A DNA stretch of 64,000 nt, taken from assembly GCF_000165835.1 (NCBI RefSeq), contig NC_014640.1, positions 5,394,001-5,458,000 on the forward strand, read 5' to 3'. Source of the stretch: Achromobacter xylosoxidans A8 (GTDB taxonomy: Bacteria; Pseudomonadota; Gammaproteobacteria; Burkholderiales; Burkholderiaceae_B). Both the position numbers and the translations under genes were made by a program. Under the pieces are notes generated by a model. That model did no database searches, had not been told where the DNA came from, and saw only the letters and a program-made list of their open reading frames with translations. Within the stretch, counting starts at the first letter, position 1; the number at the start of each line of letters is the position of its first letter. Shown piece by piece: positions 42,128-43,973 of the stretch.

Positions 42128-42286
42128 TCAGAACGACAAGGCCAGCGGGCTGGTCATGTGGTACTGGCACCAGGCGGCGAACAGCGCCAGCGTCAGCAGC
42201 CAGAAGGTCACGCAGGGGCGGCGCCTGCCCAGCATGCCGAACCACACCGCGATCAGGCCAGTCAGGAAAGGCAACATCATTACCAT
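42128..42286 (-). CDS. Small membrane protein, DUF5993 family
   Basis: The 52-residue protein has two hydrophobic segments (MMLPFLTGLIAVWFGML and VTFWLLTLALFAAWCQYHM) and fits DUF5993. Members of this family are typically found beside DsbB-like genes, as here. AAAGGAG stands about 10 bases before the ATG at 42286. A longer open frame exists upstream but has no ribosome site. Function unknown. A role in helping the adjacent DsbB is only a guess from linkage. Confidence 0.75.
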   Translation of the reverse strand: MVMMLPFLTGLIAVWFGMLGRRRPCVTFWLLTLALFAAWCQYHMTSPLALSF

Positions 42287-42433
42287 GCTGGGAGCTCCTT
42301 TCTGGGGAACGTCCCCATGCAAGCAGCCTGGAATTATAACGTCACAATTCGCAATAAATCTTATCGAAAGCCCTGATAACACTTGCAGGGCAGGTGCTTT
42401 CGGGGCGAAAAAACCCGCTCCATCTGAACCGCC

Positions 42434-42467
42434 CCCTGGAAGTTGGACGTCAATCCAACTTCCAGGG
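42434..42467. repeat. Perfect 14-bp inverted repeat, left edge of the repeat element
   Basis: CCCTGGAAGTTGGA (42434-42447) and TCCAACTTCCAGGG (42454-42467) are perfect complements around a 6-base loop (CGTCAA). This hairpin marks the left boundary of the 42.4-43.1 kb repeat element. Confidence 0.85.
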
Positions 42468-42474
42468 AGCGGAG

Positions 42475-42756
42475 CGGCAGGGCTTCGAGCTTGCGGATGT
42501 CGGGGTTCTTAAGCCGCCGAGGCTGCCCTGCGCCATTCCGATGCTCGCCCCGGTGGGGCTGCGCTTCGGATGGCTCCGGGGTCCTCGGCTGACAGTCGCC
42601 CAATATGTTGGTTTTGGACCTCGTTCATGGGCAGATGCCGTGAGCCGGTGGCCGGGCGGAGGGATCCGAAGCGCAGCCCCACTGGGGCGAGCATCGGAAT
42701 CCCGCAGTCCGGACGGCGGCGACTCAAGAACCCCGCCTCACAAAGCCGAAGTGCGG
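42475..42756. repeat. Repeat unit A: large imperfect palindrome
   Basis: The unit is a nested palindrome. An outer stem pairs 42501-42519 with 42717-42735 (17 of 19). The main stem pairs 42535-42571 with 42664-42700 (36 of 37), leaving a 92-base loop. It recurs as unit B 284 bases downstream with few changes. No open frame with protein-like composition is found. Confidence 0.85.
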
Positions 42757-42758
42757 AA

Positions 42759-43034
42759 CGGCAGGGCTTCGAGCTTGCGGATGTCGGGGTTCTTCAGCCG
42801 CCGAGGCTGCCCTGCGCCATTCCGATGCTCGCCCGGCGGGGCTGCGCTTCGGATGGCTCCGGGGTCCTCGGCTGGAAATTGCCAATGCGTTGGTTCGGAC
42901 CCGTTCATGGGCAGATGCCGTGAGCCGGTGGCCGGGCGGAGGGATCCGAAGCGCAGCCCACCGGGCGAGCATCGGAATCCCGCAGTCCGGACGCCGGCGA
43001 CTCAAGAACCCCGCCCCACAAAACCGAAGTGCGA
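42759..43034. repeat. Repeat unit B: second tandem copy of the palindromic unit
   Basis: This copy is nearly identical to unit A and aligned to it in direct orientation. Its main arms are 42819-42854 and 42944-42978. Both arms have lost C or G bases in the same GC run compared with unit A, so pairing is largely kept. The loop region is a few bases shorter and more diverged. Confidence 0.85.
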
Positions 43035-43061
43035 TCCGGATTTTCCAAATCCGGATCGCAC
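43029..43061. repeat. Perfect 15-bp hairpin at the right edge, beside purC
   Basis: GTGCGATCCGGATTT (43029-43043) and AAATCCGGATCGCAC (43047-43061) are perfect complements around a 3-base loop. It lies 30 bases after the purC stop on the minus strand and is followed there by TTCGGTTTTG, so it may double as the purC terminator. Confidence 0.85.
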
Positions 43062-43091
43062 TAGGAGCGGGCTTTCCTTGGCCGGCAGCGT

Positions 43092-43973
43092 TCAGGCGAC
43101 CAGGCGGTCCAGGGCTTCGCGGTACTTGGCGGCGGTCTTTTCCAGCACGTCCTGCGGCAGGCGCGGCGCGGGCGGGGTCTTGTCCCAGGTCTGGGTTTCC
43201 AGCCAGTCGCGCACGAACTGCTTGTCGAACGAGGGCGGGCTGATGCCCACGCGGTAGCCGTCGGCCGGCCAGAAACGCGAAGAATCGGGCGTCAGCACTT
43301 CGTCCATCAGGTACAGCGTGCCATCGTCGTCCAGGCCGAATTCGAACTTGGTGTCGGCGATGATGATGCCCTTGGTAGCCGCGAACTTGGCGGCTTCGGC
43401 GTACAGCTTGAGAGTCACGTCGCGGATGCGCTCGGCCATTTCCTGACCGACTTCCTTGACCACGTGGGCGAAGTCCACGTTCTCGTCGTGCATGCCGAAT
43501 TCGGCCTTGGCGGCGGGCGTGAAAATGGGTTCGGGCAACTGGCTGGCCTGCTGCAGGCCGGCGGGCAGCTTGATGCCGCAGACGGCGCCGGTGGCCTGAT
43601 AGTCCTTCCAGCCGGAGCCGATCAGGTAGCCGCGGGCCACCGCTTCCACCAGGATGGGCTTCAAGCGCTTGACCACCACGGCGCGGCCGCGCACCTGGTC
43701 GACTTCATCCGGCGCCACCACGTCTTCGGCCTTGATGCCGGTGGAGTGGTTCGGCAGGATGTGGGCCAGCTTCTGCAGCCAGAACTCGGTCAGTTCGGTC
43801 AGCACCTGCCCCTTGCCGGGGATCGGGTCGTCAAGAATCACGTCGAAAGCGGAGATACGATCCGACGCGACGATCAGCAACTTGTCGTCGCCCACCGCGT
43901 ACATGTCGCGCACCTTACCGCGGCCCAGCAGCGGCAAGGACTTGATGCTGGATTGATGCAAAGCAGAAGTCAC
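43092..43973 (-). CDS. purC: Phosphoribosylaminoimidazole-succinocarboxamide synthase (SAICAR synthase)
   Basis: PurC joins aspartate to CAIR with ATP. The 293-residue protein is the longer, yeast-type form with [31 protein letters not shown] at the N-terminus, [17 protein letters not shown], the [16 protein letters not shown] block and [15 protein letters not shown]. It is transcribed alone, 264 bp from a divergent GFA gene. It is separated from dsbB and the purEK genes by the repeat element. Confidence 0.95.

Follow-up and report, generated by a model that had tools for sequence, protein, structure and literature searches.

The element examined here lies downstream of purC in the genome of Achromobacter xylosoxidans A8, within a 64-kb stretch of DNA (hereafter the window, i.e., the whole stretch that was analysed). 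On its far side, and on the same strand as purC, are a gene for a small DUF5993 protein and a DsbB-like gene (DsbB match below the cut-off). The array is built of two units, A and B, of about 275 bp each with a period of about 284 bp, and 63 bp separate the end of purC from unit B. The features of the locus, in window coordinates, are as follows.

42128-42295, gene for the small DUF5993 protein, directly upstream of the DsbB-like gene
42408..42421, minus strand, A-run and left arm (CCCGCTCC) of the split, putative purC terminator (position and comparison with relatives)
42425..42472, no strand assigned, hairpin similar to the left end of an IS3-like element (34/44 bases identical)
42476..42750, plus strand, unit A, a hairpin pair (repeat search)
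42505..42590, plus strand, hairpin module 1 (covariance model, 106.8 bits; copy included in the model)
42643..42731, minus strand, hairpin module 2 (covariance model, 78.8 bits; copy included in the model)
42760..43028, plus strand, unit B, a hairpin pair (repeat search)
42789..42873, plus strand, hairpin module 3 (covariance model, 96.7 bits)
42923..43009, minus strand, hairpin module 4 (covariance model, 75.7 bits)
43028..43062, no strand assigned, right end hairpin, its 16-bp arms fully complementary (those of the 11 other type I ends compared are not)
43064..43071, minus strand, right arm (GGAGCGGG) of the split, putative purC terminator (comparison with relatives)
43092..43973, minus strand, purC, 3′ end towards the array (PRK13961/purC above the cut-off)

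A preliminary description of the locus had reported two near-identical units forming huge inverted repeats and bracketed by two strong hairpins, all of which are present in the sequence. Within the element, four blocks of direct copies are 90-100% identical, with a start-to-start spacing of 278-284; the arms of unit A (42528-42578 and 42657-42707) are 90% complementary over 51 nt, and in the RNA fold the longest helix without interruption has 37 pairs and joins 42535 to 42700. Folding, which had been suggested as a check, yielded z of about −17 on both strands, with 0 of 20 shuffles equally good. The left bracketing hairpin (42429-42447/42454-42472) is 95% complementary over 19 nt, 14 of them perfect by eye, and the right one (43028-43043/43047-43062) is 100% complementary over 16 nt. 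The statement that no protein is encoded agrees with the lack of any Pfam match (E<=1) for three long ORFs across the element. A known RNA family was rejected as well: Rfam returned 8 matches up to E 5, none at its gathering score, the best being a miRNA model on both strands (E 7e-6 and 5e-5), with 43 and 39 bits where its gathering score is 268. Such arrays occur at 8 loci of the 3-contig A8 genome and occupy the purC position in 6 further genomes (in G031, the array is cut by a contig end), which makes an assembly artefact unlikely.

A search of the genome and its relatives, likewise recommended at the outset, thus recovered a repeated element, present at those 8 loci in A8 and at more in relatives. 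The 8 loci, located by the unit search, hold 27 hairpins; at least two units or unit parts are found at 5 of them and one at the other 3, and a search tolerating up to 3 mismatches places the core palindrome 19 times in this genome, always inside these loci. In the window, the covariance model detects four strong copies in the orientation + - + -, with a hairpin-to-hairpin spacing of about 142 on average, and two weak hits, E 0.018 and 0.036, where hairpins 2 and 4 are read from the other strand. Across Achromobacter, the half-unit model recognises 199 hairpins in 59 loci, and all 140 neighbouring pairs are opposite in orientation, one of these pairs, in locus L136, spanning about 1 kb between two arrays; in other genera, the same holds for 10/10 neighbours within arrays. 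Since neighbouring hairpins are always opposite, a “unit” is one plus and one minus hairpin, and the giant palindrome results from two inverted hairpin copies standing side by side. In the alignment, many hairpin columns are invariant and the spacers drift. The conserved module is, on this comparison of sequences, a predicted hairpin of 86-89 nt and not the giant palindrome. When the covariance model was run on 67 sources (array-less sites, IS and Y1_Tnp loci), it produced one hit, a shortened copy in L236.

The first survey found matches in 13 of 37 Achromobacter genomes, A8 included, and in 0 of 24 genomes from other genera; beyond it, three more Achromobacter genomes (G061, G062 and G066) carry the repeat. 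The exact core pattern was found in 44 stretches of named species genomes, all of them Achromobacter, in a search that may omit records very near the A8 genome. Carriage by plasmids, phages or viruses was rejected, with no match to the repeat in plasmid and phage records and none to the exact core pattern in viral contigs. A family survey of 200 genomes from 43 genera gave 7 matches besides A8, three of which, with E from 4e-4 to 1e-3, are weak and could reflect chance. In the remaining four genomes, from three other genera, only unit halves match, at 77-91% identity over longer stretches: G095 and G127 contain alternating series of 2 to 4 hairpins, G080 a single + - pair and G253 single hairpins. 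By eye, these genera retain the hairpin and differ in the spacers.

Grouped by eye, the arrays occupy a few intergenic sites common to several species, including the following.

s1, at purC
s2, between a 3-hydroxyacyl-CoA dehydrogenase gene and a TctC gene
s3, between an ABC transporter ATPase gene and a CoA-transferase gene
s4, between a Beta-lactamase-family (PF00144) gene and an aldo/keto reductase gene
s5, after a 2-hydroxyacid dehydrogenase gene
s6, near an IclR-type gene

Further sites exist. The number of hairpins varies among six genomes, being 4, 8, 4, 5, 8 and 4 at s1 and 2, 6, 2, 5, 6 and 2 at s2, the final value coming from an array cut by a contig end. When three flank segments were used for a midpoint-rooted tree, s1, s3 and s4 were present in all seven genomes of one clade; two further groups hold s3 in part, and some of their members s4 or s5, alongside members without. 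The contig of G012 ends at s3. What Achromobacter has in common with the other genera is, as judged from the aligned copies, the hairpin, and the same intergenic sites recur across species with differing copy number. By eye, units cluster by genome more than by site, with mixing, and the s1 and s2 arrays of G001 have 877 bp in common at 99.2% identity; these two distant sites have evidently exchanged sequence. Separately, in locus L136 of A. aegrifaciens, two single units are about 1.07 kb apart and have between them an ORF of 248 aa, which by eye is unlike a transposase, so that the units were rejected as transposase flanks. At several sites (L027, L125, L130, L022, L129, L026, L131 and others), the array ends bear CTAG or TTAG, whose TAG seems to double as the stop codon of the neighbouring gene.

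Compensatory change was measured in the single hairpin at two evolutionary depths. Within Achromobacter, 6 pairs show two-sided change against 6.7 in shuffles, and the score is 0.062 against 0.060 (16/500); two-sided cells number 18 against 8.7 (0/500), 9 of the 18 coming from one pair. The cross-genus set comprised 31 hairpins (30 distinct), 12 from Achromobacter and 19 from three other genera, with L146 and one L344 hairpin omitted; the structure was taken from the Achromobacter fold and the MAFFT alignment was made without structure. Here, 79 two-sided cells were observed against 31.1 in shuffles (0/500), the score was 0.243 against 0.110 (0/500), with slid controls at no more than 0.101, 91.3% of cells were paired against 82.3% (0/500), and 11 of 29 pairs changed on both sides against 8.0 (9/500), all of these being statistics that ignore relatedness in a set in which 14 of the 31 rows represent one genus. 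A contrary measure is the number of further pair types, 20, which is below every shuffle (mean 25.9). The single hairpin is, on these alignments, a covarying structure across genera, though not by every measure, and the apparent compensatory changes are located in this 86-89-nt hairpin, mainly between genera. Shared ancestry and copying between arms, which can mimic compensatory change, could add to the signal.

These data bear on whether the arrays are neutral remains, that is, an old insertion persisting in intergenic space that tolerates it, evened out by recombination and without function. The patchy distribution in the genus (13 of the 37 genomes of the first search) and the existence of decayed and partial copies would fit such an origin, which we regard as a tenable minority reading; against it stand the many invariant hairpin columns next to drifting spacers, the covariation between genera and the retention of three sites in 7/7 genomes of one clade.

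The purC flank was found in 43/43 genomes, from which 30 loci were taken up and 29 inspected in sequence; 7 of the 30, among them the one beyond the 29, contain an array, one (G014) an IS end and the remaining 22 a short hairpin. In each of these 22 relatives, by eye, the site holds one short uninterrupted hairpin with an A-run beside it, and in the window the two arms of this terminator flank the array on either side. The comparison shows the purC array to lie in the loop of what appears to be the ancestral terminator of purC. Loops of this kind also emerged as insertion sites of an IS3-like element of 1433 bp in the A8 genome (about 1430-1450 bp across copies), which starts on the left with a hairpin and then T5 and whose OrfA matches HTH_Tnp_1 above the cut-off, the NCBIfam IS3 match of OrfA alone being below the cut-off. 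The ends of this element were sought for 27 of the longer matches, in seven genomes, and resolved for 18 in six (L295-L300 in A8, L313, L320-L328, L332 and L334). Fifteen of the 18 resolved copies are flanked on both sides by stretches of 10 nt or more that pair perfectly with each other, a situation found at 0.16% of 5000 random window positions, and 14 of the 18 have a 3-bp duplication. The element seems mostly to target the loops of putative intrinsic terminators. Among 12 short matches, 6 (L302, L303, L304, L306, L309 and L312) are, by eye, solo mini copies with little beyond the IS ends, located in terminator loops, some with 3-bp duplications. In G003, where no array was detected, a further short IS-end match (L305, G003:C7:186560-186890) is situated about 1.7 kb away from the 3′ end of purC.

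Both bracketing hairpins of the preliminary description exist and are things different from the units. The left one resembles the end of the IS3-like element, to which it aligns with a score of 58 against at most 31 in 500 shuffles; in the IS-end search, it fell below the significance threshold that its three counterparts (G061 s1, G000 s2 and G001 s2) passed at E 2.6e-6 to 5.4e-12. The right one is perfect in this lineage only: among twelve type I ends, the 3′ arm is imperfect in the eleven others and, by eye, all changes in the window copy are towards the complement of the 5′ arm. We infer that the right hairpin was probably perfected by copying of one arm onto the other.

With regard to a MITE-type mobile element with defined ends, the right end approximates ACGTCAACAATCCAACCAAAAATGCTCTAG at s3, s4, s5 and some other sites, the left end of s4 resembles the inverse of ACGTCAACAATCCAACCAAAAATGCTCTAG and CTAG stands at the edges (all by eye), and the unit number varies between ACGTCAACAATCCAACCAAAAATGCTCTAG-type ends. 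However, the ends are different at the two purC-type sites, inverted terminal repeats being visible by eye at some sites but not at the purC type; in A8, the right-end motif (up to 3 mismatches) is found only at two array loci, so that no autonomous partner is seen; no clean empty site with a target duplication was obtained, array-less relatives being too diverged at the sites; and the hairpin is common to other genera. Mobility of this type is, in our judgement, rather unlikely.

The preliminary description further held that units A and B had lost bases in both stem arms in a matched manner. A C lost from the left arm is indeed paired with a G lost from the right arm, but a C lost from the right arm has no partner change on the left, and the differences in the GC runs look like run slippage. 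Compensatory change and exchange between copies, the two causes offered for matched changes, both occur; the giant stem as the selected structure did not survive the covariation check, in which the rod, on 74 of 83 units (9 were removed by hand as divergent or near duplicate), had two-sided change at 5 pairs, where shuffles gave 12.3, and a score of 0.054 against 0.057. At a mean of −172 kcal/mol, the rod exceeds a fold into two separate hairpins (−140 kcal/mol) in stability. Selection on this giant stem, as a DNA cruciform or an RNA rod, is accordingly very improbable as proposed for the main structure, despite the highly stable fold (z of about −17) in which the rod is the minimum-energy form, given that the rod has no excess of compensatory change, that exact matches of the half-unit centres number 20 among the 64 units scored (of 83) against 20.1 in shuffles, and that, among the other genera, single hairpins are present in one and different spacers in others.

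Among known systems, the closest in working are REPs and BIMEs, in the excerpt of PMC2817692 intergenic palindromes, with BIMEs regularly spaced and alternating in orientation; REP dimers, according to part of PMC3733652, fold singly or into one large stem. The array shares the alternating orientation and regular spacing (140/140 opposite, about 142 on average) and the intergenic location (ORF heuristic). By contrast, its hairpin measures 86-89 nt against 20-40 bp for a REP unit, A8 has 27 hairpins at 8 loci against more than 100 copies of REP, and the consensus of 31 hairpins, by eye, bears neither a GTAG nor a CGTC tetranucleotide at its end. An origin as RAYT-driven REPs was rejected: Y1_Tnp has no match in A8 and none in 14 of 18 further genomes, and the six matches in the other 4 lie at loci without the hairpin. 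The array is BIME-like in its working, yet it departs from the REP family in unit length, copy number, end tag and RAYT, and we therefore do not file it there.

Other resemblances are more remote. The BrickBuilt MITE of Porphyromonas gingivalis is outlined in PMC4596501 (in excerpt) as a tandem repeat between a constant leader and tail, always intergenic; its repeat is of 23 nt and not an inverted hairpin pair, and its host belongs to a phylum other than that of Achromobacter. Pneumococcal BOX elements, in the portion of PMC3049150 consulted, have constant end modules and a variable number of inner modules and are structured if transcribed; the inner modules are direct repeats of a sequence other than the array hairpins. 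The bordetellae stem-loop families, structured repeat families in related genera in the excerpted PMC2267715, resemble the array hairpin in general description. With respect to the left end hairpin alone, the excerpt of PMC1525189 presents IS1397, ISKpn1 and ISPsy8 as IS3-family elements that insert in REP palindromes, whereas the targets of the IS3-like element described here look like intrinsic terminators. In the literature as represented by titles and the opening parts of abstracts, no description of this repeat or of a terminator-loop-aimed IS was recognised, which is not proof of absence.

We favour, with moderate confidence, a BIME-like array that serves as a structured 3′ end, a function suggested by position and structure. 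In 56 of 62 rows, and in 10/10 rows of other genera, a gene points its 3′ end at the array, as counted with an ORF heuristic within some hundred bases on rows that include orthologues and a duplicate; by our estimate, random gene orientation would give about three quarters. Under this proposal, arrays would have been placed at new sites long ago by some mobility function, none having been found for the hairpin, and the hairpin pairs would multiply and shrink by recombination between tandem copies. The hairpin, when transcribed at the end of an mRNA, would fold stably, shield the 3′ end and replace or insulate the terminator, and it would be retained for this role. The “matched changes” would then have three sources: compensatory evolution in the single hairpin, copies made alike by homogenisation, and arm copying in the right hairpin. 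A broader and distinctly more tentative proposition is that the hairpin, in at least 4 genera of one betaproteobacterial family, is a selected, structured RNA module that spreads without help from a RAYT, settling at 3′ ends and in a terminator loop, and that the alternating arrays take over the formation of transcript ends and are kept uniform by exchange between sites.

With few copies, sites shared among species, visible changes in copy number and structural covariation, and without the transposase linked to REPs elsewhere, these arrays may offer a compact case for what keeps BIME-like hairpins and how such hairpins move. They also illustrate that apparent matched changes in a giant palindrome can stem from the smaller units of which it is composed.
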